The notes under the pieces: generated by a model
What the model was told of the DNA's origin: nothing
Databases searched by the model: none
Seen by the model: the letters and a program-made list of their open reading frames with translations, nothing else
Assembly: GCA_013388965.1 (NCBI GenBank)
Contig: JACAEG010000129.1
Span: forward strand, 1 to 36,824
DNA from: Pseudorhodoplanes sp.
GTDB taxonomy: Bacteria > Pseudomonadota > Alphaproteobacteria > Rhizobiales > Xanthobacteraceae
Direction of reading: 5' to 3'
DNA: 36,824 nucleotides
Part shown: piece after piece, positions 9,412-23,679 of the stretch
Layout: each line of letters begins with the position of its first letter
How positions within the stretch are numbered: the first letter of the stretch is position 1
Position numbers and translations under genes: made by a program

Positions 9412-10422
9412 TCAGTTCTTCGGCCGCAGGTCGACACCCACGCCCTTGTTCACGAATTGCAGCGTGTAGGATTTGCGGTAATCGAGGTCCGGCTTGACGA
9501 CGCCCGCTCGCACCATCTTGTCAAAGAAATCCCGCATGCGCGCATCGGTCATGGCGCCGATCCCCTGCGTCAGCGCGTCGCCCGAATCGACAATTCCGTG
9601 CTTCTTCATGCGCGCGATGGAATAGGCGATCGCGTCGTCGGTCATTTCCGGATTGTCGCGCTTGATCAGTGCGTTCGCAGCCCTGTTGTCGCCGTAGAGA
9701 TAATTGTACCAGCCGATCGCCGAGGCATCGACAAAGCGCTGCACGAGCGCGGCCTTCTTCTCGACGAGGTCGCGCCGCGTCTCGATCAGGGTCGAGTAGC
9801 TGCTGAAACCCTGATCGGCCAGCAGAAAGATCTTCGGACGGAAGCCGCCCTGTTTCTCGATCGCGTAGGGCTCCGAGGTGACATAGCCCTGCATGGCCGA
9901 GCGCTTGTCGGCGAGAAAGGGTTGCGGGTTGAAGGTGTAGGGCTTGACCTGGCTTTCGCTGAAACCGAAATCGCGCTTCATCCACTGGAAGTAGCTCGCG
10001 ATCCCCTCCTTCGATACGAACAGCGTCAGCTTCTTCAGGTCCTCGAAGGTCTCGATGCCCTCCCCCGGATGGGCCAGAAACACCTGCGGATCCTTCTGGA
10101 AAATCGCGGCGACGGTGACTGTCGGCACGTTCTGCGCGACGGCATCGAAGCCCTGCAGCGAATTCGCCATCATGTAGAAGTCGAGCTTGCCGGCAGCGAG
10201 CAGCAGGCGGTTGTTCGCGTTCGGGCCGCCCTGCATGATGGTTACGGCTAGACCGTGCCTGGCATAGGTTCCATCGGCCACGGCCTGATAGAAGCCGCCA
10301 TGCTCCGCCTGTGCGACCCAGTTGGTGCCGAACGACACCTTGTCTGGCGTCTGCGCGCCGGCATCCGCGACGGAAAGGCAGAAAAATGCGGCAACAAGGG
10401 TTTTCCTGAACATCGTCCTCAT
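9412..10422 (-). CDS. ABC transporter substrate-binding protein (NMT1/THI5-like)
   Basis: Signal peptide MRTMFRKTLVAAFFCLSVADAGAQ; VSFGTNWVAQAEHGGFYQAVADGTYARHGLAVTIMQGGPNANNRLLLAAGKLDF. Confidence 0.9.
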   Translation of the reverse strand: MRTMFRKTLVAAFFCLSVADAGAQTPDKVSFGTNWVAQAEHGGFYQAVADGTYARHGLAVTIMQGGPNANNRLLLAAGKLDFYMMANSLQGFDAVAQNVPTVTVAAIFQKDPQVFLAHPGEGIETFEDLKKLTLFVSKEGIASYFQWMKRDFGFSESQVKPYTFNPQPFLADKRSAMQGYVTSEPYAIEKQGGFRPKIFLLADQGFSSYSTLIETRRDLVEKKAALVQRFVDASAIGWYNYLYGDNRAANALIKRDNPEMTDDAIAYSIARMKKHGIVDSGDALTQGIGAMTDARMRDFFDKMVRAGVVKPDLDYRKSYTLQFVNKGVGVDLRPKN

Positions 10423-10622
10423 ATCCGAAAAGGCAAATCCCGGCGCCGCGACGATACGGCATCGCGCGGAGCCGTGCGAGTCGCGCGGCTCCGTCCGGCG
10501 TCACCTTCGCTCCGTCACCCCCCACGCGAGGTCATCGCGGTTCAGTCGGTAATGGCCAGCCGCTTCGCCACCTCTTCCAGCGGGCACAGGAAACATCCGA
10601 ACCGGAGGCCTGCACAGGCTGC

Positions 10623-10647
10623 GGAACAATTCCTCACCGACAGCGTT
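10623..10647 (+). promoter_or_regulatory. Putative sigma-EcfG promoter upstream of the HWE kinase gene
   Basis: GGAAC-N16-CGTT: ggaac aattcctcaccgacag cgtt. Confidence 0.75.
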
Positions 10648-10772
10648 GACCCACCCGTTCCTGCGGGCGCAGTGTGGCAGCAACTGACGAGAGACATCCG
10701 CTTAAATGACATAATCCTTGGGCGATCTGGAAACCGCCCTCCCGCGAGGCAGCGTTTCGCTCTGCCTGGAAT

Positions 10773-12452
10773 ATGCAAGGCACAATGACTCCGCGCGACG
10801 TCCGTCAGCCCCTGGGTCTGCCCCGAAGCGCCATCGCCGTCCTGGTGTTGCTCGCGGTCGGCGGTATCCTGCTGTCCTTCTATGCCGGCCATCGAGAGAC
10901 GCGCCAATACGAGGCGCTGGAGAAGCTGCGCGTCGACGAGGCGGTCGACGCGCATTTCAGCGCGGTCAGGGATCATCTCAGCGCGCGCGAGAATCTGGCT
11001 GCGACCGTTTCCACCCTGTTCGATCCGCCGCCGCTGCCGGCCTCGAATCCGCTGGGAAATTTCGGCGAGCATGTCATCGCGCTGGCGCCGGAAATCTCGA
11101 CGGTCGGCTGGCTGCCGGAAGTCACGGCCGACAATGCGGCGGCTGCGCTGCAATCGATGGCCGCGTCCGGGATCTCCGATCCGCGCTTTGTGGGCGCCGA
11201 CGGCGCTCCCATCTCGCCGGACGGACTGGGGCGTCCGCTTTATCCCATCATCGACATCGCCCCGGAGAGCAACCGCCGGCTTCTCGGCGTCGATGCCGGC
11301 TCCTTTCCGGAGCGTCTGGACGCCATCCGCCGCGCGCGCGACAGCCGCGCCGTGAGCCGCACGACGCCGTTGCGGCTCGTGCAGGCACCCGAGAGCGAAG
11401 CGATCCTTCTCTACGCGCCCGTCTACGCCAAGGATGGCCGCTTTCTCGGCGTGATGGGCTTTGCCTACAAGGTCGAGCGTCTCTTTCAGGCCGCGCTCGC
11501 ATCAGCGCAGGCGGCCGGCCATTTCGGCGTGCGGGTCATGTCCCGGAACGTCGACGTGCCGCTCTTCGCAGCCGGTCCCGGCCAGGGCCCGGCAGCGGCT
11601 GCCCCGGATGAGGCTCGCACGACGACGAAAATCGAGCGCAAAACCGATTTCGGCGGCCGGGAATTGCGCTTCGTCTATGCAGCACCGAGCAATCCCGGCA
11701 ACGAGGGTTTCTGGCGCGGCCTCGGCGTCACCCTGGCGGGACTGGGACTGACCGTGGCGGCCGTCTCGCTGCTCGGCTTCATGGCGAACCGCACCAGCGC
11801 GCTGACTCGCGAGGTCAGTTCGCGGCGCTCGGCCGAGGATCGGCTGAAGGTCCTCATTCATGAGCTCAATCATCGCGTCAGGAACGTGATGTCGGTCGCG
11901 CAGGCGATCGTGCGGCTGAGCTTCACGCCGGGCGCCAGCCTGCCGGACGTGCAGAAGACCTGCGAGGGGCGGCTGCAGGCGCTCGCCAATGCGATGTCGC
12001 TCCTTACCGCGAGCGACTGGAAGAACATCAGCATCCGCAGCCTGATCACCGAGGAAATCCTGCCCTTCTCGGAGCGCATCCGCACCAGCGGTCCCGACCT
12101 CGCGCTGAGCGGGCGTTCGGCGCAGACCTTTGCGCTGCTGCTGCACGAGCTCGCCACCAATGCCGTCAAGCATGGCGCACTCTCGGTGCCGAGGGGACAA
12201 GTATTCCTGACCTGGCAGATCGAGCAGGCCGAGCCGGAAGCGACGTTCCGCCTGCGCTGGCGAGAGACCGGCGGGCCGGAGGCCAGGCAGCCGACGCATC
12301 GCGGCTTCGGGGAGTTGCTGGTCAAGCGCATCGCGCCGCGCGATCTTGCGGGCCGGGGCACGGCAACCTACGAGACGGACGGCTTCCGCTACGAGCTGGA
12401 AGCGCCGCTGCGCGAGGTCACCTCTCCCGCCGTGCAGGTAGCGGCGGAATAA
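10773..12452 (+). CDS. CHASE-domain sensor histidine kinase of the HWE family (start may be 10785)
   Basis: TM, periplasmic CHASE-like region (FSAVRDHLSARENLAATVSTLF...), second TM, LIHELNHRVRNVMSVAQAI (HRxxN), N-box LLLHELATNAVKHGALS, WRETGGP (WxE motif). Confidence 0.9.
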   Translation: MQGTMTPRDVRQPLGLPRSAIAVLVLLAVGGILLSFYAGHRETRQYEALEKLRVDEAVDAHFSAVRDHLSARENLAATVSTLFDPPPLPASNPLGNFGEHVIALAPEISTVGWLPEVTADNAAAALQSMAASGISDPRFVGADGAPISPDGLGRPLYPIIDIAPESNRRLLGVDAGSFPERLDAIRRARDSRAVSRTTPLRLVQAPESEAILLYAPVYAKDGRFLGVMGFAYKVERLFQAALASAQAAGHFGVRVMSRNVDVPLFAAGPGQGPAAAAPDEARTTTKIERKTDFGGRELRFVYAAPSNPGNEGFWRGLGVTLAGLGLTVAAVSLLGFMANRTSALTREVSSRRSAEDRLKVLIHELNHRVRNVMSVAQAIVRLSFTPGASLPDVQKTCEGRLQALANAMSLLTASDWKNISIRSLITEEILPFSERIRTSGPDLALSGRSAQTFALLLHELATNAVKHGALSVPRGQVFLTWQIEQAEPEATFRLRWRETGGPEARQPTHRGFGELLVKRIAPRDLAGRGTATYETDGFRYELEAPLREVTSPAVQVAAE

Positions 12453-12459
12453 CGCGCCC

Positions 12460-13224
12460 CTATGTCCTGAAGCGGGCGGCGAGCGCGTCTGCGGCGCGGG
12501 CGAGCAGCCCGACATCCGACCCGACGCCCACGACCAGCGCGCCGAGTTCGAGCCAGCGCCGTGCATTCTCCTCGGTGTCGGCGAGGATCCCGGGCGCCTT
12601 GCCGGCCTTCGCGATGCGGCGGATGGCGTCGTCGATCAGCGGCATGACGTCCTTGTGCGAGCGTTCGCCGGTAAAGCCGAGCGAGGCATGCAGATCGCCC
12701 GGCCCGATGAAGATGCAATCGATGCCGTCGATTGCGGCGATGGCTTCGATGTTGTCGAGCGATTCCTGCGTTTCGGCCTGCACGATCACGCAGATCTCCT
12801 CATGCGCGATCCTGAAATAGTTCCTGATGCGGCCGAACATCGTGCCGCGCGTCGCGGCGGCGATGCCGCGCACGCCGGCGGGCGGATAGCGCGTGTAGGC
12901 GACCGCGTTCCTCGCTTCCTCCGCGGTGTTGACCTGGGGGATCAGCAGGCTCTGGATGCCGATATCGAGATAGCGCTTGATCGTGACCATGTCGTTCCAG
13001 GGCACGCGCACGATCGGCGTCGTCGGATAGCGCGCCATTGCCTGCAGCTGTCCGAGCACGTTCTCGAGATCGGCGGGCGAATGCTCGGTGTCGATGACGA
13101 GCCAGTCGAAGCCGGCGCCGGCGATCACCTCGGCGGTGTAGTTCGACGACAGGCTCGCCCACAGACCGATCTGCGGCCTGCCGGCCGCGAGCGCGCGCTT
13201 GAGATTGTTTTTCGGATTGTCCAT
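12460..13224 (-). CDS. HpcH/HpaI family aldolase (2-dehydro-3-deoxyglucarate aldolase-like)
   Basis: LWASLSSNYTAEVIAGAGFDWLVIDTEHSPADL...PIVRVPWNDMVTIKRYLDIGIQSLLIPQVNTAEEARNAV...IDCIFIGPGDLHASLG. Confidence 0.93.
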   Translation of the reverse strand: MDNPKNNLKRALAAGRPQIGLWASLSSNYTAEVIAGAGFDWLVIDTEHSPADLENVLGQLQAMARYPTTPIVRVPWNDMVTIKRYLDIGIQSLLIPQVNTAEEARNAVAYTRYPPAGVRGIAAATRGTMFGRIRNYFRIAHEEICVIVQAETQESLDNIEAIAAIDGIDCIFIGPGDLHASLGFTGERSHKDVMPLIDDAIRRIAKAGKAPGILADTEENARRWLELGALVVGVGSDVGLLARAADALAARFRT

Positions 13225-13236
13225 TGGCGTTTGTCC

Positions 13237-14073
13237 TCAAAACCCGTAAAGGCGTGCCGGATTGTCGACGAGAATCTTCTGGCGCGTCGCCTCGTCCGGC
13301 GCCCAGTCGAGCAGCATGTCGAGCAGGACCGCGTCGTCAGGCTTGCGGTCCGCAGGCGCGGACGGATGCGGCCAGTTGCTCGCCCACAGCATGCGCTCCG
13401 GCGCGGCGCGCACCAGCTCTTTCGCAAGCGCACCGACATCGTCGAAATGGGGCGGGCCCTCTTTCGACGTTTCGTAGGGCGCAGCGAGCTTTACATAGGT
13501 GCGGCCTTCCTCGACCAGCCGCAGCAGCGCGCGGAAGGCCGGATGATCGACGGGCACCGGCTCGAGAAATTTTCCGACATGGTCGATGACGAGCGTGCCG
13601 GGCAGCCGGCGCACGGCCGCCTCGTGCTCGAGAAACTCGCGGCCGTCGAACTGCAATTGCGCATGCCAGCCGAACGGCTGCACACGCGCGGCAATGGCAT
13701 CGAGCGCCCGCCACGGCAGCGCACCGCCCGGCAGCATGAAGAAGCGGACGCCGCGCACGCCAGCCCTCGTCAGGCGATCGAGCTCGGCGTCGCTCACGCC
13801 GGCATCGACCACCGCGACGCCCCGTGCCTTGTCGGCCCCGATGGCCGCCATCGATTCCAGCAGGCAGCGATTGTCGGTGCCATAGGTCGTGGCCTGGACG
13901 ACGACGGTGCGGGCGATCCCAAGCCGTTTCGCCATTGCGAGGTAGTCGGCGACGGACGCGTCGGGCGGATACATTTTCGCGGTCGACGCCATCGGATAGC
14001 GCCGATCGTAGACATGGATATGGGTGTCGGTCGTGCCGGACGGCGCCTGCAGGCGCGGTGAGCCGCTGGTCAT
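13237..14073 (-). CDS. Amidohydrolase-superfamily (COG3618-type) lactone hydrolase/isomerase
   Basis: TDTHIHVYDRRYP (HxH), GVRGVRFF, LVIDHVGKF, MLWASNWPHPS, ILVDNPARLYGF. Confidence 0.88.
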   Translation of the reverse strand: MTSGSPRLQAPSGTTDTHIHVYDRRYPMASTAKMYPPDASVADYLAMAKRLGIARTVVVQATTYGTDNRCLLESMAAIGADKARGVAVVDAGVSDAELDRLTRAGVRGVRFFMLPGGALPWRALDAIAARVQPFGWHAQLQFDGREFLEHEAAVRRLPGTLVIDHVGKFLEPVPVDHPAFRALLRLVEEGRTYVKLAAPYETSKEGPPHFDDVGALAKELVRAAPERMLWASNWPHPSAPADRKPDDAVLLDMLLDWAPDEATRQKILVDNPARLYGF

Positions 14074-14080
14074 CGGGCGC

Positions 14081-14890
14081 TCAGACCGGCGACGGCTCGC
14101 CGCCGTCATACTCGGCGCTGCAGAAAGGGCCTCCCTGATACCAGTCGCCCACCGGATCGGGCGGCAGCCTGGCCTGCTCGGCCAGGGCGGCATCGCGGAA
14201 ATCCTCCGCGCGGCCCTGCGGCCTATAGCCGTAGCGAAATGCCGCCTCGTTATCCCAGAAGCCGCGCTCGTTGTTCGAGGCGCCGTAGAAAATCTCGTAG
14301 CGGATATCCGGATGTTCGAGCCCGATCCGGATCAGCTGCACGAGATCCTGCGGCGCGAGCCAGATCGACAGGCGGCGCTGGTCGAGCGGCGCGTCGCCGA
14401 AATTGCCGATGCGCAGGCAGGTCACGCGCAGACCGTGCTTGAAGGCATAGAGCGAGCCGAGCGCCTCGCCGAACGCCTTGCTGACGCCATAGCGCGAATC
14501 GGGGCGCACGGGCGCGTTGATGCCGATCTTGCGGCGACGCGGATAGAACCCCATCGCGTGATTGGACGAAGCGAACACGATGCGCTTCACGCGCGCCACG
14601 CGCGCCGCCTCGAACAGGTTGTAGCAGCCGATGATGTTTGCGTTGAGGATCGTATCCCACGGGCCTTCGACCGAGTGTCCGCCGAGATGCACGATTCCCT
14701 CGACTCCCTCGACCGCCTTCGCGACCTCGTCCATCTTCGCAAGGTCCGCGACCACAAACGTCTCGTCGGACCCGAGATCGGCCGGCGCGCCGATGTCGCT
14801 CCACACGATCTGCGGATAGACGCCCTTCAGAAGCGTCCGCAGCCGGGTTCCGATTCCCCCCGACGCGCCGGTGACCAGGACTTTCTGCAT
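14081..14890 (-). CDS. NAD-dependent epimerase-fold oxidoreductase, probable uronate dehydrogenase
   Basis: MQKVLVTGASGGIGTRLRTLL; HLGGHSVEGPWDTILNANIIGCYNLFEAARVARVKRIVFASSNHAMGFYPR; YGVSKAFGE; pattern typical of Udh. Confidence 0.85.
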   Translation of the reverse strand: MQKVLVTGASGGIGTRLRTLLKGVYPQIVWSDIGAPADLGSDETFVVADLAKMDEVAKAVEGVEGIVHLGGHSVEGPWDTILNANIIGCYNLFEAARVARVKRIVFASSNHAMGFYPRRRKIGINAPVRPDSRYGVSKAFGEALGSLYAFKHGLRVTCLRIGNFGDAPLDQRRLSIWLAPQDLVQLIRIGLEHPDIRYEIFYGASNNERGFWDNEAAFRYGYRPQGRAEDFRDAALAEQARLPPDPVGDWYQGGPFCSAEYDGGEPSPV

Positions 14891-14929
14891 GCTGCTCCCT
14901 TGCAGGATTTCAACGCGACCTCGGCGCCG

Positions 14930-15691
14930 TCACGCCTTGCCGTGCAGGCGTGCCAGCTTGCTGTAGCGTTTCCGGCTGTTCATGAGATGACGCCGCATGG
15001 CGGCGCTTGCCTGTTTGGGCGATCGGCTGCGAATGGCATCCACGATCTGCCGATGCTCCTTCTGGAAGGTTTCGGCATAGCTGCGGCGCGCCGACGGACT
15101 GGAGCCGCCCGCAATGGTGTTGCGCGGAATGACGAAGCGGCCAAGATATTCGAGAAACCGCGTGAATTGCGGATTCCCGGTCGCCTCCGCGATGGCGCAA
15201 TGCAGGGCGAAATCCTCGCTCACGGCGGATTCGCCGCGCCGGATGGCTGCTTCCAGCGTGTCCAGCCGCATGACGATCTTTGCTATCTGCGCGCTCGTCG
15301 CCCGTTCCGCCGCCAGTCCGGCGGCCTCGACCTCGACGCCGGTCCGCAGCTCCATCACGTCGAGCACCTCGCGCAGCGTGCGCGCCTCGTCAAGATCGAT
15401 CCGGAAAGGCCGACGCGGATTGTCCGTCACGAAAGCGCCCACGCCCTGGCGCGTGATGACAAGCCCCTCCGCGCGCAGATGAGCGACCGCTTCGCGCACG
15501 ACGGTGCGGCTGACACCCGTGGCGGCGATCATTTCCTGCTCGGTCGGCAGCCGCGCCCCCGGCGCGAGCCGCCCGTCGACGATGTCCGCGGTCAGCCGCG
15601 CGACGAGCTCGGCGGTCAGGCGGGGCGGCACGGGAAGGCGACGAAACGCGCCGAGTTTTTCAGCCGCAGGCTTGTTCAGCGATCTTGACAC
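14930..15691 (-). CDS. GntR-family transcriptional regulator, FadR/FCD subfamily
   Basis: wHTH LAPGARLPTEQEMIAATGVSRTVVREAVAHLRAEGLVITRQGVGAFV followed by an FCD-like helical domain. Confidence 0.93.
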   Translation of the reverse strand: MSRSLNKPAAEKLGAFRRLPVPPRLTAELVARLTADIVDGRLAPGARLPTEQEMIAATGVSRTVVREAVAHLRAEGLVITRQGVGAFVTDNPRRPFRIDLDEARTLREVLDVMELRTGVEVEAAGLAAERATSAQIAKIVMRLDTLEAAIRRGESAVSEDFALHCAIAEATGNPQFTRFLEYLGRFVIPRNTIAGGSSPSARRSYAETFQKEHRQIVDAIRSRSPKQASAAMRRHLMNSRKRYSKLARLHGKA

Positions 15692-15707
15692 CCGCCGGTC
15701 CTATAAG

Positions 15708-15720
15708 GTCATCATATGAC
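15708..15720. promoter_or_regulatory. Candidate GntR/FCD operator in the divergent gntR-dctP intergenic region
   Basis: Inverted repeat GTCAT-CAT-ATGAC between the divergent regulator and TRAP genes. Confidence 0.6.
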
Positions 15721-15799
15721 ATGACGCCTAACATGAGGCGGCGCGGGGATCAACGGCCGGCGACGGTCACTCCGCAAAGACAATGTCAGGGAGGAACGG

Positions 15800-16795
15800 A
15801 TGAAGAGATTGGTGACCGGGATTGCGTCCGCCGCGTTGCTGGCGGCGGTGCTCGGAGCGGGAAGCCCCGCTTTCGCTCAACAAAAGATGGTGCTCAAGGC
15901 GACCGACGTGCATCCACTCGGCTATCCGACGGTGGAAGCGGTTGTGCGCATGGGCAAGAAGCTCGAACAGGCAACCAACGGCCGGCTCAGCATCCAGATG
16001 TTCCCGTCGATGCAACTCGGCGGCGAGAAGGAGATGATCGAGCAGGCGCAGGTGGGCGCGCTGGCCTTCGCGCGGATCAGCGTCGGTCCGATGGGGCCGG
16101 TCGTGCCGGAGCTCAATGTCTTCAATCTCCCCTTCATGTTCCGCGACGTCGCTCACGCCGAGAAAGTGATGGACGGACCGATCGGCGATGAAATGCTGAA
16201 GAAGCTGTCCGACAATCCGAATGCGGGCCTGATCGGGCTCGCCTGGATGAGCGGCGGCGCACGCAACGTCTACAATAACAAGAAGCCGATCAAGACGGTG
16301 GACGACCTGAAAGGTCTGAAAATCCGCATGATGGGCAATCCGGTGTTCGTGGACACGATGAACTCGCTCGGCGGAAACGGCGTGGCAATGGGCTATGACC
16401 AGCTCATCAACGCATTGCAGACCGGCGTCGTCGACGGCGCGGAGAACAACGAGCCGAGCTACGAGAGCGGCCAGCACTACCGCTATGCCAAATACTATTC
16501 GAATACCGGCCACCTGATCATCCCCGAGATTCTCGTCTTCTCGAAGAAGATCTGGGAATCGCTGTCGAAGGACGATCAGGCGCTGATCATGAAGCTCGCC
16601 AAGGAGGCGCAGCAGGAACAGCGCCAACTCTGGGCGGAGCGCGAAAAGGCCTCGCTGGTGAAGATGAAGGAGGCGGGCGCCATCATCAACGACGTGCCCG
16701 ACAAGAAGCCGTTCCAGGCTGCGGTAAAGCCGGTGTGGGACAAGTATGGTGCGCAATACCAGGCGCTGATCCAGCGCATCCAGGATGTGAAGTAA
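15800..16795 (+). CDS. dctP: TRAP transporter substrate-binding protein (DctP family)
   Basis: Signal peptide; KATDVHPLGYPTVEAVVRMGKKLEQATNGRLSIQMFPSMQLGGEKEMIEQAQVGALAFARISVGPM; TGVVDGAENNEPSYES. Confidence 0.94.
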   Translation: MKRLVTGIASAALLAAVLGAGSPAFAQQKMVLKATDVHPLGYPTVEAVVRMGKKLEQATNGRLSIQMFPSMQLGGEKEMIEQAQVGALAFARISVGPMGPVVPELNVFNLPFMFRDVAHAEKVMDGPIGDEMLKKLSDNPNAGLIGLAWMSGGARNVYNNKKPIKTVDDLKGLKIRMMGNPVFVDTMNSLGGNGVAMGYDQLINALQTGVVDGAENNEPSYESGQHYRYAKYYSNTGHLIIPEILVFSKKIWESLSKDDQALIMKLAKEAQQEQRQLWAEREKASLVKMKEAGAIINDVPDKKPFQAAVKPVWDKYGAQYQALIQRIQDVK

Positions 16796-16877
16796 GAGAC
16801 ACTGTCGGGGGCGTCGAGGGGCCGGCCGTTCCGTCGAGGCGCGCGCCGGCCCTTCAATTTTGGAACGGGATGGGGAC

Positions 16878-17396
16878 ATGAAGGCGCGCTACGTCGAGCT
16901 GATGAACGTGCTGCATCGCTTCTGCATGGTGATCGCCGGCGCCTGTCTTGTGATCATTACCCTCATCATCCCGTGGGGGGTTTTCACCCGCTACGTGCTC
17001 AACAGCGCGTCGTCTTGGCCGGAGCCGGCAGCCGTGCTGCTGATGATCTGGTTTTCGTTCCTTTCGGCGGCGATCTGCTATCGCGAGAGCCTGCATATCG
17101 GCGTCGCCGTCGTTCCGATGATGTTGAGCGGCAATGCGCGCGTCGCCGTCGGATGGTTCGTCGAGGCGTGCATGATGAGCGCGGCGCTGTTCATGTTCTG
17201 GTGGGGCAGCAAGCTCGTGCAAACGACCTGGCATCAGTCGATTGCCGATTTTCCGGGATTTTCGGTCGGGGCGTCCTATCTCCCGATCCCGCTCGGGGGG
17301 CTGATCACAGCGCTGTTTGTGATCGAGAAGCTATGGACATCCGATCTGTTCGGCGAACCCGACGACGACGCAGTCAGCCGCGTGTCGACCGAGTAG
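16878..17396 (+). CDS. dctQ: TRAP transporter small permease (DctQ family)
   Basis: 4-TM protein; MKARYVELMNVLHRFCMVIAGACLVIITLIIPWGVFTRYVLNSASSWPEPAAVLLMIW. Confidence 0.92.
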   Translation: MKARYVELMNVLHRFCMVIAGACLVIITLIIPWGVFTRYVLNSASSWPEPAAVLLMIWFSFLSAAICYRESLHIGVAVVPMMLSGNARVAVGWFVEACMMSAALFMFWWGSKLVQTTWHQSIADFPGFSVGASYLPIPLGGLITALFVIEKLWTSDLFGEPDDDAVSRVSTE

Positions 17397-17411
17397 CAGA
17401 GGCACCGCGTC

Positions 17412-18695
17412 ATGGACATGCTGATCTTGATGGGTGGCTTCGCGGTGCTATGCCTGATGGGCGTGCCGGTTGCCTATGCGCTCGGTCTCGCGGCCATTCT
17501 CGCCGCGCTCTGGCTGGACCTTCCGCTTGAAGCGGTCATGCTGAAAACGTCCGACGGAATGGACGATTTCGCTCTGCTGGCGATCCCGTTCTTCATCCTC
17601 GCCGGCGGCATCATGGCGGAAGGCGGAATGGCGACGCGCCTGGTCAACCTGGCGAAGGTCTTTGTCGGGTTCATCAGAGGCGGCCTCTCGCTCGTGAACA
17701 TTCTCGCCTCGACGATGTTCGGCTGCATCTCCGGTTCGTCCGTTGCGGATACCGCCGCGATCGGCTCGGTGATGATCCCGCAGATGGTGAAGGCGGGATA
17801 TCCGCGCCTGTTCGCGGTGAATGTCACGATCGCCGGATCGCTGCAGCCTCTGCTGATCCCGCCTTCGCACAATGCCGTGATCTATTCGCTGGCGGCGGGC
17901 GGAACCATCTCGGTCGCCCATCTCTTCATCGCGGGAATCATTCCGGGACTTCTGCTCGGCCTCTCCCTGATGTCGCTGTGCTTCTATATCGCGCGCCGCG
18001 ACAATTTTCCGAAAGGAGACGTGATTCCGCTCGGTCAGGCCTTGAAGATCGCGGGCGAGGCGTTCTGGGGACTGCTGACCGTCGTCATCATCATCGGCGG
18101 CATCCTGAGCGGAATCTTCACGCCGACCGAATCGGCCGCGGTGGCCTGCGTCTATTCGTTTTTCGTCACGATGTTCATCTATCGCGACTACAAGTGGCAT
18201 GAATTGCCTCTGCTGATCGGGCGCGTCGTGCGGACCGTCGGCATGGTGATGATCATGATCGGGTTCTCGGTCGCTTTCGGCTACATGATGGCGATCATGC
18301 AGGTGCCCGCCAAGGCGACCGCGTTCTTCCTCACCATCGCCGACAACAAGTACACACTGCTCCTGCTGATCAATGTCCTGCTGCTGGTGCTCGGAACGTT
18401 CATGGACCTCGCGCCGATGCTGCTGATCTGCACGCCGATCTTCCTGCCGGTCATCAAGCAGTTCGGGATCGATCCCGTTCACTTCGGGATGATCATGATC
18501 CTCAATCTCGGAATCGGACTGTTGACGCCTCCGGTGGGTCCGACACTGGCGGTCGGATGCGCGATCGGAAAAGTGTCGATGGAAGCGGTCTCGCGGAGCA
18601 TCCTGATCTTCTATATCCCGATGCTCATCGTGCTCATGCTCGTTACCTATATCCCGGCGCTGTCGCTGTGGCTGCCGCGCGTCCTGCTGAACTGA
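17412..18695 (+). CDS. dctM: TRAP transporter large permease (DctM family)
   Basis: GVPVAYALGLAAILAALWL...AIPFFILAGGIMAEGGMATRLVNLAKVFVGFIRGGLSLVNILASTMFGCISGSSVADTAAIGSVMIPQM. Confidence 0.95.
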   Translation: MDMLILMGGFAVLCLMGVPVAYALGLAAILAALWLDLPLEAVMLKTSDGMDDFALLAIPFFILAGGIMAEGGMATRLVNLAKVFVGFIRGGLSLVNILASTMFGCISGSSVADTAAIGSVMIPQMVKAGYPRLFAVNVTIAGSLQPLLIPPSHNAVIYSLAAGGTISVAHLFIAGIIPGLLLGLSLMSLCFYIARRDNFPKGDVIPLGQALKIAGEAFWGLLTVVIIIGGILSGIFTPTESAAVACVYSFFVTMFIYRDYKWHELPLLIGRVVRTVGMVMIMIGFSVAFGYMMAIMQVPAKATAFFLTIADNKYTLLLLINVLLLVLGTFMDLAPMLLICTPIFLPVIKQFGIDPVHFGMIMILNLGIGLLTPPVGPTLAVGCAIGKVSMEAVSRSILIFYIPMLIVLMLVTYIPALSLWLPRVLLN

Positions 18696-18705
18696 AGACG
18701 CCTGT

Positions 18706-18849
18706 TCACGAGACGAGCCAGCTCACGACGAAGCCGATCACCACGAGCGCAGTGCCGATCACGAGCACAGCGAGCACAGGCCTGTCCAGGAAACCCTGCC
18801 GCGCCTCGACCGCCGTCTCTTCGATTCGTCCGTCTGCCGTCTTGCGCAT
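18706..18849 (-). CDS. Small single-TM hypothetical protein (47 aa)
   Basis: MRKTADGRIEETAVEARQGFLDRPVLAVLVIGTALVVIGFVVSWLVS; preceded by an exact EcfG-type promoter motif. Confidence 0.65.
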   Translation of the reverse strand: MRKTADGRIEETAVEARQGFLDRPVLAVLVIGTALVVIGFVVSWLVS

Positions 18850-18882
18850 CGCGCTTCTCCCGCGTTGAGGTGCCTGCCGGTC

Positions 18883-18907
18883 AACGTGCAGCGCGTTCGC
18901 CTGTTCC
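18883..18907 (-). promoter_or_regulatory. Putative sigma-EcfG promoter (minus strand) for the 47-aa TM protein
   Basis: Minus strand GGAAC-AGGCGAACGCGCTGCA-CGTT (N16). Confidence 0.75.
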
Positions 18908-18925
18908 GTTTTGCTGTTCCCGCAC

Positions 18926-18950
18926 GGAACTTTTTGCACAAGTCGGTGTT
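18926..18950 (+). promoter_or_regulatory. Putative sigma-EcfG promoter (near-consensus) for the DUF3309 gene
   Basis: GGAAC-TTTTTGCACAAGTCGG-TGTT (N16; one mismatch in the -10). Confidence 0.6.
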
Positions 18951-19008
18951 GCCAAACGTCACAGGGGCGGGGCGCCCCAGAAATTGGTGACGACTTAGGA
19001 GATACGTC

Positions 19009-19167
19009 ATGTCACTCGGCACAATTCTGCTGATCATCCTGATTTTGATTTTGGTCGGCGCTTTTCCGGGGTGGGGCTACAGCCGCGGTTGGGGCTATGG
19101 TCCGTCCGGCATCGTTGGCGTCATTCTGGTTGTGGTTCTGATCCTCGTTCTGCTTGGACGGATCTGA
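19009..19167 (+). CDS. DUF3309 family small membrane protein
   Basis: MSLGTILLIILILILVGAFPGWGYSRGWGYGPSGIVGVILVVVLILVLLGRI. Confidence 0.88.
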   Translation: MSLGTILLIILILILVGAFPGWGYSRGWGYGPSGIVGVILVVVLILVLLGRI

Positions 19168-19196
19168 TCGACAGCCATTCGGCGAGGGAAACAAAC

Positions 19197-19223
19197 AAGG
19201 CCGCCCGCGAGGGCGGCCTTTGT
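19197..19223 (+). terminator. Rho-independent terminator-like hairpin after the DUF3309 gene
   Basis: AAGGCCGCCC-GCGA-GGGCGGCCTT followed by TGT. Confidence 0.75.
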
Positions 19224-19264
19224 CACTGGAGATGCCGCAGAAAACGGAACCCCGGGTCAAGCGG

Positions 19265-19642
19265 CTACGTCACGCAACGGCCGCTCTCGCGCGCCAGCGG
19301 AGACCGCGTGATCGAGCTGACGACCGGCTCGCAGGCCACCGGCAGCTTGTTTTCCGTCCGTGACGGCCCTGGACCCGGAATATCGCGCACCGGGGTGAGC
19401 GGAGGGCGCACCCGCTCGCGATTCGCAAGTCCCGGAGAATGGAACGGGCGTTCGGCCTCGATCTGCAGCCGATCGCCCTTGCCGGACCGGTCGACGACCT
19501 GTTCGAAATGCGCCGCGCCGCTCTGGCTCAGCGCGGCCGACGGACGGGCCCAGTCAAGCGGCGAGCCAGCCAGTTCAAGGACCGCGGCCGTGACAATGCC
19601 GCCAACGATGTAGGGTGCAAGATTCGGTGCAAGACGGCCCAT
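19265..19642 (-). CDS. Hypothetical protein with N-terminal TM/signal segment
   Basis: MGRLAPNLAPYIVGGIVTAAVLELAGSPLDWARPSAALS...; exact EcfG-type motif upstream. Confidence 0.65.
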   Translation of the reverse strand: MGRLAPNLAPYIVGGIVTAAVLELAGSPLDWARPSAALSQSGAAHFEQVVDRSGKGDRLQIEAERPFHSPGLANRERVRPPLTPVRDIPGPGPSRTENKLPVACEPVVSSITRSPLARESGRCVT

Positions 19643-19708
19643 GACTGATCCCTCGATGCCCCCGAACCCCGTTCGCTGCGTGTAACCCCTGTACGTACTC
19701 CGCCAAGC

Positions 19709-19733
19709 AACGCGCGCTGCAAGGCTTGGTTCC
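19709..19733 (-). promoter_or_regulatory. Putative sigma-EcfG promoter (minus strand) for the 19265-19642 gene
   Basis: Minus strand GGAAC-CAAGCCTTGCAGCGCG-CGTT (N16). Confidence 0.75.
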
Positions 19734-19910
19734 TGTCAGGCCTTGGGCCGCCGCTTCCGGAGAAAAAAGCCGAGGAACATCGCCGTCGCTCCGGCGTTAT
19801 TCCGGCGACCGGCTGATCCCCTCCCCCCGTGCTTGGCCGGTCAATGGGCGTAGCCGGTTCCCCCGCCGGCTACGCCATTTTCTTGTGCGATCGGCCGATC
19901 GCATGCGCGT

Positions 19911-19935
19911 GGAACCCGGTTGCACACGCGGCGTT
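19911..19935 (+). promoter_or_regulatory. Putative sigma-EcfG promoter for the YqjD-like/YqjE-like gene pair
   Basis: GGAAC-CCGGTTGCACACGCGG-CGTT (N16), 34 bp before the ATG. Confidence 0.75.
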
Positions 19936-19969
19936 GAAGTTCCGAGCTTGCAAACACGGCGAGGATGAC

Positions 19970-20416
19970 ATGCCCAGGCGCACAACAAAGAACGGCCGCA
20001 CCCCGGCAACCGCAGAGATGGCCGAAATCAACGCCCTGCTGGGCGATCTCGAACAGCGCCTGGCGCGCGTGAGCGCGGTCGCCGCGCAGGAGGGCTCGTC
20101 CGCCGCGTCGGCAACCGCATCGGCTGCGGACAATATCAGCCGGGCCGTGGTGGATGCGCTGATCGGCATGGCCGATCGCGTGCGCGAAAGCGCGGGCCTC
20201 ATCTCCGAGGACGTCGCGGGCCGGCTTCGCGACAACGCGGTCGAGGCCGGCGGGCGCATGAGCAGGACCGCGCGAAATGTCGCGGACGACGCCTTCCGGT
20301 TCGGCACCGGCGCCATCAGGCGAATCGCCGACCAGGCCGAACAGCGGCCGCTGCTTACGCTCGCGATTGCGGCCGGCGTCGGCTATCTCGCGGGCCTTGC
20401 CGGCCGCCGTCACTAA
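19970..20416 (+). CDS. Hypothetical protein resembling DUF883/ElaB-YqjD type (helical, C-terminal hydrophobic anchor)
   Basis: MPRRTTKNGRTPATAEMAEINALLGDLEQRLARVSA...EQRPLLTLAIAAGVGYLAGLAGRRH. Confidence 0.75.
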   Translation: MPRRTTKNGRTPATAEMAEINALLGDLEQRLARVSAVAAQEGSSAASATASAADNISRAVVDALIGMADRVRESAGLISEDVAGRLRDNAVEAGGRMSRTARNVADDAFRFGTGAIRRIADQAEQRPLLTLAIAAGVGYLAGLAGRRH

Positions 20417-20431
20417 CCAGGGGCAGTTTCG

Positions 20432-20824
20432 ATGTCGCTCGTCCAATATGCCGCCGCCAGGGTCGGCCGGGCGGCCTCGCGCGTGGCGAAGCTCGCCGGC
20501 GGCTATCTTGCCGCAGGCGTGCTGCTGCTCGTCGGGATCGGCTATGCATCGACGGCCGCGGTCATGGCGCTCGAGACGGCCATCGGTCCGGCGGGCGCGC
20601 GTTTCGTGCTCGCAGCCTTCTACATGCTCTGCGGCGCCGCAATCATCGTTGCGATGCGCTGGCGCGAGAATCCCTCCGCAGCCGCTTCCGAAAGCGAACA
20701 GAGCGCGGGCGACAAGCCCCGCGCCCTGAATCTTGCGATGCTGCTCGAAGCCCTGATGCTGGGCTTCTCGATGTCGTCGTCGCGAGCGCCTGGCCGCAAG
20801 CCGCCGACCAGGCGCCGCCGCTGA
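20432..20824 (+). CDS. Phage-holin-family/YqjE-like membrane protein
   Basis: Two hydrophobic segments (LAAGVLLLVGIGYASTAAVMAL; FVLAAFYMLCGAAIIVAM); 15 bp downstream of the YqjD-like gene. Confidence 0.7.
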   Translation: MSLVQYAAARVGRAASRVAKLAGGYLAAGVLLLVGIGYASTAAVMALETAIGPAGARFVLAAFYMLCGAAIIVAMRWRENPSAAASESEQSAGDKPRALNLAMLLEALMLGFSMSSSRAPGRKPPTRRRR

Positions 20825-21625
20825 TCAGCTTGCGCGGCGCTCGCTCCGCTTCGCCTTCCGCTCGAAGAACAGCGCCTGGCTGACCACCGCCGAAATGGTG
20901 GCCGGCTGGAAGGGCTTGGGGATGAGGAAGGCCGGCTCCGGCCGCTCGCCGGTGAGGAAGCGCTCCGGATAGGCCGTGATGAAGATCACCGGCACCTCGA
21001 AGGTGCGCAGCAACTCGTTGACGGCATCGAGGCCGGAGCTCCCGTCCGCGAGCTGGATATCGGCAAGGATGAGACCGGGTCGCTTGGGCTTCGCGAGCGC
21101 GACCGCTTCCGCATGCGTGCGCGCGATGCCGATCACGCGATGACCGAGCCCCTGGACGAGGCCTTCGAGGTCCATGGCAATGAAAGGCTCGTCCTCGATG
21201 ATGAGGACGTCGGTCGCGATCTCCGCTGCCAGTTCGCGGCCGGATTCCTCGACAAGCTGCGTCAGATCTCGCGTATCGACGTCGAGAATCTGGGCGGCGT
21301 CCGCCTCCGAAAAGCCCTCGAGCGCGATCAGCAGAAAGGCCTGGCGCGGACGGGAGGTAATCTGGGCGATCCGCTGATCGATCGGCAATCCGCGATCGGC
21401 CATGTCGGGCGCATTGTTCACCGACACCGAATTCCAGATTTTCGTGAACAGCCGGTAGAGCGCGACCCGCGGCTCGAGCGCGCCGTCAAGAACGCCGGGA
21501 TCCCCGATGAGGGCTTCGAGCGTTGCCGCCACATAGCTGTCTCCGGAGCCCTGGCTGCCGGTGAGCGCGCGGGCATAACGACGCAAAAAAGGCAAATGAA
21601 GTGCAACGGCCTGGGATGTGGACAC
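20825..21625 (-). CDS. phyR: General stress response regulator PhyR (sigma-like domain + receiver)
   Basis: N-terminal sigma-like domain (FLRRYARALTGSQGSGDSYVAATLEAL...) and C-terminal receiver (DVLIIEDEPFIAMDLEGLVQGLGHRVIGIARTHAEAVALAKPKRPGLILADIQLADGSSGLDAV). Confidence 0.96.
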   Translation of the reverse strand: MSTSQAVALHLPFLRRYARALTGSQGSGDSYVAATLEALIGDPGVLDGALEPRVALYRLFTKIWNSVSVNNAPDMADRGLPIDQRIAQITSRPRQAFLLIALEGFSEADAAQILDVDTRDLTQLVEESGRELAAEIATDVLIIEDEPFIAMDLEGLVQGLGHRVIGIARTHAEAVALAKPKRPGLILADIQLADGSSGLDAVNELLRTFEVPVIFITAYPERFLTGERPEPAFLIPKPFQPATISAVVSQALFFERKAKRSERRAS

Positions 21626-21698
21626 GAAAAGACCCTCCCGCTGTGATCCACGAAGTTACCCGCATTAATCCCCCACCTCAAAAAAAGTTCCGAGGCCG

Positions 21699-21723
21699 GG
21701 AACATTCGAAATTTGCTGGCGTT
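21699..21723 (+). promoter_or_regulatory. Putative sigma-EcfG promoter of nepR-ecfG (autoregulatory)
   Basis: GGAAC-ATTCGAAATTTGCTGG-CGTT (N16). Confidence 0.85.
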
Positions 21724-21796
21724 ATCCGGGTGTTCACGCAGGCAGGGGGCCTCAATCCTGGGACTATTGTCTCAGAAGGGTCGGGGGAAACGAGAG

Positions 21797-22036
21797 ATGA
21801 CGGACGACAAGCCAGGCAAACCCGAACAGCCAATGACCATGCACCAGAATCCTCAGAAAGACGGGGCCCGGCTGAGCAAGGAGATTCAAGCACGAATCGG
21901 CCAGCAGCTGCGCTCCATGTACGACGACGTCGTCAAGGAAGGCGTCCCCAGCCGTTTCGCCGCGCTGATCGAGCAGATCGAGAATTCCGACGACCAGCCC
22001 AAGGACACGGACAGCAGCAAGGGATCGCGCGGATGA
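21797..22036 (+). CDS. nepR: Anti-sigma factor NepR
   Basis: LSKEIQARIGQQLRSMYDDVVKEGVPSRFAALIEQIE; located between phyR and ecfG; stop overlaps the ecfG start (ATGA). Confidence 0.93.
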   Translation: MTDDKPGKPEQPMTMHQNPQKDGARLSKEIQARIGQQLRSMYDDVVKEGVPSRFAALIEQIENSDDQPKDTDSSKGSRG

Positions 22037-22584
22037 AGATCGACCCGCATCTGCGCGACGCCGTGCTGGCCGCTGTGCCGAGCCTCCGCGCCTTCGCGAT
22101 TTCGCTGTCCGGCAATGTCGACCGGGCCGACGATCTCGTGCAGGAAACCATGCTGCGGGCGCTCGCCAACATCCATTCCTTCCAGCCCGGCACCAACATG
22201 TCCGCATGGCTGTTCACCATCCTGCGGAACCTGTTTCGCTCCGAATACCGCAAGCGCCGGCGCGAGGTCGAGGATGCCGACGGCAGCTATGCAGCCAACC
22301 TGAAATCCCAGCCCGAGCAGAACGCCAAGGTGGAATACAACGAGCTGCGCGAGGCGCTCGCCAAGCTGCCCGCAGACCAGCGCGAGGCGCTCATTCTCGT
22401 CGGCGCCTCCGGCTTTTCCTATGAGGAAGCCGCCGCGATCTCGGGCTGCGCCGTGGGCACGATCAAGAGTCGCGTGAATCGCGCGCGCAACCGGCTGGCC
22501 GAGATGATGTCGCTGGACAGCGCCGAGGATTTCGGTCCGGACCGCGAGACTCAAGCCGTGATGGGCGGCACTCATCGCAGATAA
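22033..22584 (+). CDS. ecfG: RNA polymerase sigma factor EcfG (ECF15)
   Basis: VPSLRAFAISLSGNVDRADDLVQETMLRALANIHSFQPGTNMSAWLFTILRNLFRSEYRKRRREVED...LPADQREALILVGASGFSYEEAAAISGCAVGTIKSRVNRAR. Confidence 0.95.
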   Translation: MKIDPHLRDAVLAAVPSLRAFAISLSGNVDRADDLVQETMLRALANIHSFQPGTNMSAWLFTILRNLFRSEYRKRRREVEDADGSYAANLKSQPEQNAKVEYNELREALAKLPADQREALILVGASGFSYEEAAAISGCAVGTIKSRVNRARNRLAEMMSLDSAEDFGPDRETQAVMGGTHRR

Positions 22585-22598
22585 CCGCGGGGCGGGTC

Positions 22599-23051
22599 AT
22601 GGCAAGGAAAAGGCAGCGCCGTCGCGAAACCGCGACGGCCATCGGTGCGGGCTTTCAGGAGCAGTTCAGCAGGATCGCAACGGTCATCGCGCAGAATGCT
22701 GGCAGGCCTGCGACCTTCCTGGCTGCCATTGCGCTGATCGTGGCCTGGGCCCTGAGCGGCCCGCTCTTCGGCTTCAGCGACACGTGGCAGCTCGTCATCA
22801 ATACCTCGACGACAATCGTGACGTTCCTGATGGTGTTCCTCATTCAGAACACCCAGAATCGCGACACGATGGCGCTGCAGATCAAGCTTGCGGAGCTGAT
22901 CTGCGCGGTCGATGGCGCCAAGAACAGGATCGCGACCGCCGAAGACCTGTCGGAAGGCGATCTTGAGCAGCTTCACAAGCATTATCGATCGCAGGCGGAC
23001 GCGACCCTGGAAAGCCTCGAGCAGCGCCGCAAGGAAAAGAGCCGGCACTGA
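22599..23051 (+). CDS. Low-affinity iron permease family small membrane protein
   Basis: FLAAIALIVAWALSGPLFGFSDTWQLVINTSTTIVTFLMVFLIQNTQNRDTMALQIKLAELI, typical of this family. Confidence 0.88.
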   Translation: MARKRQRRRETATAIGAGFQEQFSRIATVIAQNAGRPATFLAAIALIVAWALSGPLFGFSDTWQLVINTSTTIVTFLMVFLIQNTQNRDTMALQIKLAELICAVDGAKNRIATAEDLSEGDLEQLHKHYRSQADATLESLEQRRKEKSRH

Positions 23052-23078
23052 GCGCGCGTTCCGGCTGACGATGCAACA

Positions 23079-23429
23079 CTAGCTGAGAGCCGCTTTCACG
23101 CTGGCCAGCACGTCGGCGAGATGCTCGATGCGATAGGGCTTTTGCAGCACGGGCTGCGACCGCCACGCTTCGTCGATGCTCTCGCCGCCATAGCCGGTGC
23201 AGAAGACGACCGGAATTCCCCTGTTTCTCATTGCTTCCGCGACGGGATAGACCGGTTCTCCGGCCAGATTAACGTCGAGCAGCGAGGCATCGGCCGCGCA
23301 TTCCTGCGCAAGCTGCAGCGCCTCGCTCAAGCGCGAAGCGGAGCCCGCGATTTCGCAACCCAGTTCGGCCAGCATATCCTCGGCCAGCATCAGAATCGCA
23401 GCGTCGTCCTCAACGACGAAGATGCGCAT
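23079..23429 (-). CDS. Single-domain response regulator
   Basis: MRIFVVEDDAAILMLAEDMLAELGCEIAGSASRLSEALQLAQECAADASLLDVNLAG...IPVVFCTGYGGESIDEAWRSQPVLQKPYRIEHL. Confidence 0.92.
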   Translation of the reverse strand: MRIFVVEDDAAILMLAEDMLAELGCEIAGSASRLSEALQLAQECAADASLLDVNLAGEPVYPVAEAMRNRGIPVVFCTGYGGESIDEAWRSQPVLQKPYRIEHLADVLASVKAALS

Positions 23430-23603
23430 TCCCCTTACGTCTGCATTATCAGTCAACGTGACCGTTCGCCCCCGCTTCACCACACGTGCAAGATACGCTT
23501 TGCGTGCGGCGGGGCAAGCGTGGTGCGCCCCTTGCGCTCGAACGGCGAACGAACCGAAAATTCTGATCCCGCAGCTGGAGTGTTCTGGACAATTTCTGGG
23601 GAA

Positions 23604-23679
23604 TGGTGCCGCAAGAGGGATTCGAACCCCCGACCCCCTCATTACGAATGAGGTGCTCTACCAGCTGAGCTATTGCGGC
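23604..23679 (-). tRNA. tRNA-Thr (anticodon CGU), CCA encoded
   Basis: Minus strand GCCGCAATAGCTCAGCTGGTAGAGCACCTCATTCGTAATGAGGGGGTCGGGGGTTCGAATCCCTCTTGCGGCACCA; complete cloverleaf, loop TTCGTAA. Confidence 0.97.

Follow-up and report, generated by a model that had tools for sequence, protein, structure and literature searches.

A CHASE-HWE histidine kinase with an EcfG-type promoter motif in Pseudorhodoplanes: a candidate membrane component of the GSR

The HRXXN motif is a mark of the kinases of the general stress response (GSR), whose phosphorylation targets are PhyR or accessory phosphotransfer elements; one such kinase is usually encoded near phyR (PMC8103513). Brucella LOV-HK likewise acts on the GSR (PMC4438053). 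In Caulobacter, PhyK works as a phosphotransferase that is fed by MrrA despite its conserved ATP site, and the SigT-controlled LovK-LovR pair drains phosphoryl groups (PMC5964349). Sphingomonas PhyT, which has a degenerate ATPase domain and transfers from SdrG to PhyR, restrains the response (PMC5898713) and belongs to the transcriptional feedback control of the Sphingomonas GSR (PMC6599016). A literature search outside the subscription journals found no paper linking CHASE sensors to NepR or PhyR. Here we describe a CHASE-HWE kinase encoded in a 36,824-nucleotide stretch of a Pseudorhodoplanes sp. genome (the window), which a first-pass annotation had called a PhyK-like candidate GSR sensor with positive feedback.

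The kinase and its clade

The gene occupies positions 10773-12452 of the forward strand, an ORF encoding 559 amino acids, with a plausible alternative start at an in-frame ATG at 10785 that is preceded by AAGG. Pfam identifies a CHASE sensor domain at residues 106-247 (11088-11513, forward strand; 79.6 bits) and an HWE_HK domain at residues 364-442 (70.4 bits), both far above the respective cut-offs of 25 and 22.8 bits. The CHASE match agrees with the extracytoplasmic CHASE-like sensor that had been proposed, the membrane helices coming from inspection and the model only: hydrophobic stretches at about residues 19-38 and 314-337 flank the sensor in the sequence and in the predicted model, and the first of them, a probable transmembrane segment (10827-10886, forward strand), coincides with a helix modelled at residues 18-82. 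The extracytoplasmic region would then extend from this segment to about residue 310. The dimerisation and phosphotransfer domain (11862-12098, forward strand) carries HRVRN, in keeping with HRXXN, and the phosphoacceptor His367, which is invariant in 14 aligned homologues. It is followed by the catalytic ATP-binding domain (12099-12410, forward strand), in which the N box residues E459 and N463 and the G1/G2 glycines G500, G501, G511 and G513 are all intact. Having the HWE_HK domain, HRXXN, an N box and WxE, the protein is a member of the HWE histidine kinase family, and the hallmarks HRVRN, HELATNAVKHG and WRETGGP were all correctly read in the first-pass annotation. It is not of the PhyT type, in which the ATP-binding domain is degenerate and the His is kept, as N463, G500, G501 and G511 are intact. 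In the predicted structure (mean pLDDT 82), the kinase core is structurally closest to Brucella LOV-HK (5epv; TM 0.85 by target, 2.4 Å), and the sensor matches that of Xanthomonas PcrK (6k62; TM 0.74 by target) as well as the CHASE domain of Arabidopsis AHK4.

A single-protein search of genome contigs with the kinase gave no matches, and an alignment search gave few full-length relatives. In a tree, the window kinase and its genus orthologues join full-length CHASE-HWE proteins of other genera with a clade support of 100/96, at identities of 27-37% over the full length. Of 200 genomes searched in the family, 82 have such a protein, almost always in single copy. Among the 73 genomes in which both kinase and phyR were placed, the kinase gene lies within 12 kb of phyR in 52, the window included, and within 4.4 kb in 50; as about 30% of placed members are not next to ecfG/phyR, adjacency is common and not defining. 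Where we looked at sister-clade loci, the gene order is phyR, nepR-ecfG and then the kinase, pointing back at ecfG.

The sister clade (loci L293-L342) has lost N463, G500, G501 and G511 in 48 of 48 members checked, and the phosphoacceptor His and the HRXXN Asn are kept in every one. It thus has the appearance of a clade-wide pseudokinase under EcfG-type promoters, with a residue pattern that is the signature of PhyT-type phosphotransferases. Pseudorhodoplanes and one other genome, G011, keep all four residues. The G011 kinase, catalytically intact, adjoins ecfG and has an EcfG-type promoter, so the intact form occurs at a GSR locus too.

The candidate EcfG promoter

An EcfG-type motif, GGAAC-N16-CGTT (GGAACAATTCCTCACCGACAGCGTT), was found by pattern match at 10623-10647 of the forward strand; it is exact and ends 125 bp before 10773, as previously annotated, and 125-137 nt separate its -10 element from the kinase start codon. 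The motif alone is weak evidence, since the strict pattern has 76 matches genome-wide and a reversed control pattern 82, with no enrichment. For any one gene, a strict motif is expected by chance in about 0.3% of 300-bp upstream stretches, and the chance of a motif in at least one of eight genus members is 2%. A looser EcfG pattern is enriched within the window (8 observed, 2.05 expected). Scored with a matrix built from relatives' nepR/phyR promoters, the spacer of the kinase motif ranks 8th among the 51 strict N16-spacer sites of the genome and is equalled by 11% of random spacers. No sigma-70 promoter was found in a scan of 10350-12600.

Stronger support for a kinase EcfG promoter than these motif statistics comes from comparison. 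GGAAC-N17-[AG]TT lies upstream of the gene in eight of the first eight sister-clade members; the relaxed -10 was picked after inspecting these eight and then tested on held-out genomes, where it is present in 36 of 42, and none of the eleven genera sampled is without a positive member. These counts come from related genomes and are not independent events, although upstream sequences and positions differ widely. Eight other spacings combined gave 10 hits in the 42 held-out loci, about 1 in 42 each, and the nepR promoters of the same sister genomes provide an independent check, having GGAAC-N17 followed by ATT, GTT or, once, CTT. Sister-clade promoters stand at -63 to -227 relative to the approximate start and are retained even in genomes such as G031, G124 and G187, in which the kinase is unlinked from phyR. 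The strict form GGAAC-N16-17-CGTT had suggested that the promoter was a singleton of the window, an idea that was revised as the sister nepR promoters use xATT. A sister clade that is usually at the phyR locus and has EcfG-type promoters strengthens the earlier proposal that the kinase is a candidate GSR sensor with an EcfG promoter.

Within the genus, a kinase orthologue 49-66% identical to that of the window is present in all seven other genomes. No EcfG-type motif was found upstream of it in any of the seven, as against the window, where GGAAC-N17-[AG]TT is also matched; a decayed site was sought by aligning upstream regions within the genus, and these regions do not align. Because the seven congeners are without the promoter, the motif of the window kinase would have been kept only here, or lost and regained, or have arisen by chance. 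Were it a chance match, the kinase could still act in the GSR, its expression being constitutive or driven by another factor, presumably as in the congeners. The motif-free congeners, the lack of genome-wide enrichment and the length of sequence between the -10 and the start codon all fit such a coincidence, but the sister clade has promoters of this kind across a range of positions and the spacer is a fairly good fit to known EcfG promoters, and we regard this explanation as possible, if doubtful. EcfG control of the candidate kinase promoter in the window organism appears somewhat more probable than its absence.

The GSR locus and the genus

In the window, phyR (20825-21625, reverse strand; Pfam PhyR_sigma2, PhyR_sigma-like and Response_reg) faces away from nepR (21797-22036, forward strand; Pfam PF18557 NepR) and ecfG (22033-22584, forward strand; Pfam Sigma70_r2 and Sigma70_r4_2), the last of which is 77-82% identical between the window and congeners. 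Pattern matches place EcfG-type motifs before phyR (GGAACTTTTTTTGAGGTGGGGGATT, with a -10 variant; 21667-21691, reverse strand) and before nepR-ecfG (21699-21723, forward strand). The phyR promoter of the window ends in ATT and those of congeners mostly in CGTT, consistent with a relaxed EcfG -10. Two more EcfG-type motifs on the forward strand lie at 18926-18950, about 60 bp before the gene of a small glycine-rich membrane protein (19009-19167), and at 19911-19935, about 35 bp ahead of a short ORF starting near 19970; this gene and this ORF are likely further GSR targets. Adjoining the ecfG operon is a single-domain response regulator (23079-23429, reverse strand), recognized from Pfam and from its sequence FCTGYG, which is FATGUY-like. 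By analogy with Caulobacter (PMC5964349) it is a possible relay partner; no close homologue of it was found beside phyR in congeners.

The end of the kinase gene lies 8.4 kb from the end of phyR, as had been annotated, with unrelated genes between them that include an aldolase/TRAP cluster, so that the direct ecfG/phyR adjacency common in the CHASE-HWE GSR clade is missing here. The distance was right, but as evidence of function it carries little weight, because the two are unlinked in congeners, all seven of which have the kinase at a great distance from phyR or on a different contig, and the GSR locus appears to have moved. In G003, G005 and G007 the kinase has an NMT1-type transporter block (3.6-10.4 kb in the window) on one side and tRNA-Thr/hemY (from 23.6 kb in the window) on the other, and in G005 and G007 tRNA-Thr is within about 30 bp of it. 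The window counterpart, tRNA-Thr(CGT) at 23604-23679 of the reverse strand, thus marks the ancestral neighbour, and the interval between kinase and tRNA-Thr/hemY (12460-23430) holds first the aldolase/TRAP cluster and, after it, the complete GSR locus (18.7-23.4 kb). Catabolic genes occupy the same interval without the GSR locus in G004 and G001. This synteny suggests that the GSR locus, and not the kinase, changed place, so that proximity to phyR is probably not ancestral and closeness alone is no evidence of function.

Such a history also invites the view that in this genus the kinase is outside the GSR, an orphan sensor of neighbouring transport or catabolic genes that came near phyR through rearrangement. 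Its position in congeners between transporter block and tRNA-Thr/hemY, away from phyR and without an EcfG promoter, is what one would expect of such a sensor. Set against this are its clade membership, the locus and promoter data of the sister clade and the exact motif in the window; nor is the catabolic cluster a constant neighbour, being absent next to the kinase in G005 and G007. We therefore think an orphan sensor unlikely. Far less probable still is that kinase and GSR locus lie close together only through misassembly. No genome but that of the window, a draft of 369 contigs that is 89.5% complete, shows the arrangement, but GC content is even across the junctions, none of which is spanned by a long repeat, and every part resembles the same genus to a similar degree of identity. 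No direct repeats marking insertion of the GSR block were found.

A different HWE kinase adjoins phyR in six of the seven congeners (the exception being G002), with PAS domains in the one that was scanned, and it forms a clade separate from the window kinase in the tree. Its counterpart was not found in the whole window draft genome, nor in G002. Congeners carry the PAS-HWE gene between a small DUF3309-like gene and phyR, and it is missing at the corresponding place in the window (19168-19970). The window genome has at least four further HWE/HisKA_2 kinases (on C125, C208, C143 and C133), and these could also act on PhyR.

Proposed role and comparison with known systems

We consider it likely that the window kinase belongs to the GSR, given the support for its clade, the linkage of that clade to phyR, the promoters in both the first and the held-out members, the HRXXN motif and the LOV-HK-like core, and given the absence from its genome of the PAS-HWE kinase that six congeners encode beside phyR. 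This case is weakened by the congeners, which lack the motif and have the gene far from phyR, and by the other HWE/HisKA_2 kinases of the genome; the catalytic degeneracy of the sister clade also counts against it, as function may have diverged. The best explanation overall, to which we give a probability of roughly 0.58, is an EcfG-transcribed membrane component of the GSR that exchanges phosphoryl groups with PhyR. EcfG would transcribe the kinase gene, so that the amount of kinase would rise once the GSR is on, and the protein would exchange phosphoryl groups with PhyR directly or via a single-domain regulator such as that at 23079-23429. With its intact catalytic site the kinase may be able to feed the pathway, and control by EcfG may just as well make it a brake. 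What the data show is the domain make-up, the intact catalytic residues, the exact motif and a clade found mostly at phyR loci with EcfG-type promoters; the use of the promoter by EcfG, the receipt of phosphoryl groups by PhyR or a relay, and the sign of the feedback are inferences.

Negative or set-point feedback by a phosphotransferase or phosphatase, as for PhyT and LovK, appears at least as likely as the positive feedback that had been annotated and for which we find no support. Positive feedback would have a true stress kinase phosphorylate PhyR and EcfG raise the level of that kinase, amplifying the response. The N, G1 and G2 residues intact in the genus and the motif upstream of the gene are compatible with this, and loss of the phyR-adjacent PAS-HWE kinase would leave a job to fill. 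However, the residues that the sister members have lost (48 of 48) make it unlikely that these proteins, which share the promoter type, are ordinary ATP-dependent kinases; the EcfG/SigT-controlled LovK-LovR and PhyT restrain the response (PMC5964349, PMC5898713, PMC6599016); and an intact CA domain is no proof of kinase use, since Caulobacter PhyK works without its own (PMC5964349). The intact ATP site leaves room for a true stress kinase, but amplification seems to us rather unlikely.

A tentative, family-wide picture may be drawn, in which CHASE-HWE membrane proteins would form an EcfG-controlled phosphotransfer hub of the GSR, with an ATP-dead form at the GSR locus and an intact form in Pseudorhodoplanes; the window lineage would have lost the PAS-HWE kinase, its GSR locus moving beside an intact form with an EcfG promoter. 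If true, nature would here have exchanged the sensor behind a conserved stress switch. The clade bears on what GSR kinases and phosphotransferases sense and on how ATP-dead HRXXN proteins arose from kinases. As it pairs intact and dead members that share the CHASE sensor, largely the promoter type and mostly the locus, the change from kinase to phosphotransferase is testable by catalytic domain swaps. A further prediction from the clade is that, in a large group of soil- and plant-associated bacteria, the GSR receives a small-molecule input from the periplasm.

Among described proteins, the CHASE cytokinin receptors Xanthomonas PcrK and Arabidopsis AHK4 share the fold of the window sensor at 18-22% identity, and cytokinin as its ligand does not appear to be indicated by this match of a model. 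The congener PAS-HWE kinase, directly downstream of phyR, is likewise a phyR-linked HRXXN HWE protein but has a PAS sensor and belongs to a separate clade. Caulobacter LovK/LovR, a GSR HRXXN kinase and its partner with SigT-controlled transcription, is a precedent for EcfG feedback; it differs in its LOV sensor, its LovR partner and its role as a phosphate drain with negative feedback (PMC5964349), the window kinase having CHASE.

Caulobacter PhyK shares a periplasmic sensor and a HisKA_2/HWE core, adjoins the GSR sigma factor gene and performs phosphotransfer to PhyR (PMC5964349). In the one named Caulobacter strain compared, the phyR-locus kinase, identified by position, is HisKA_2 with a weak dCache-like sensor and falls far outside the clade of the window kinase; orthology was ruled out, and strictly speaking the label PhyK-like is wrong. 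The phyR-locus CHASE-HWE protein of Sphingobium SYK-6 was also rejected as an orthologue, being 27% identical and branching outside the clade. Its gene (L278: 10393-12042, reverse strand) lies between phyR and nepR and has an intact-looking N box, making this a second lineage with a CHASE sensor at the GSR locus.

PhyT and PhyP of Sphingomonas melonis resemble the window kinase as membrane-anchored HRXXN proteins with a periplasmic sensor, and are GSR-linked and under GSR transcriptional control (PMC5898713, PMC6599016); PhyT has a degenerate ATPase domain and a gene at the phyR locus, and the window protein differs in both. The closest counterparts are the CHASE-HWE proteins encoded at GSR loci in the family, to which Rhodopseudomonas palustris RpaI_4707 (PhyP-type in PMC5898713) probably belongs. 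They share with the window kinase the CHASE sensor, the HRXXN DHp domain, the clade and the EcfG-type promoter, but they no longer have the N-box Asn or the G1/G2 glycines and are usually next to ecfG, whereas the window kinase is intact and lies 8.4 kb away.
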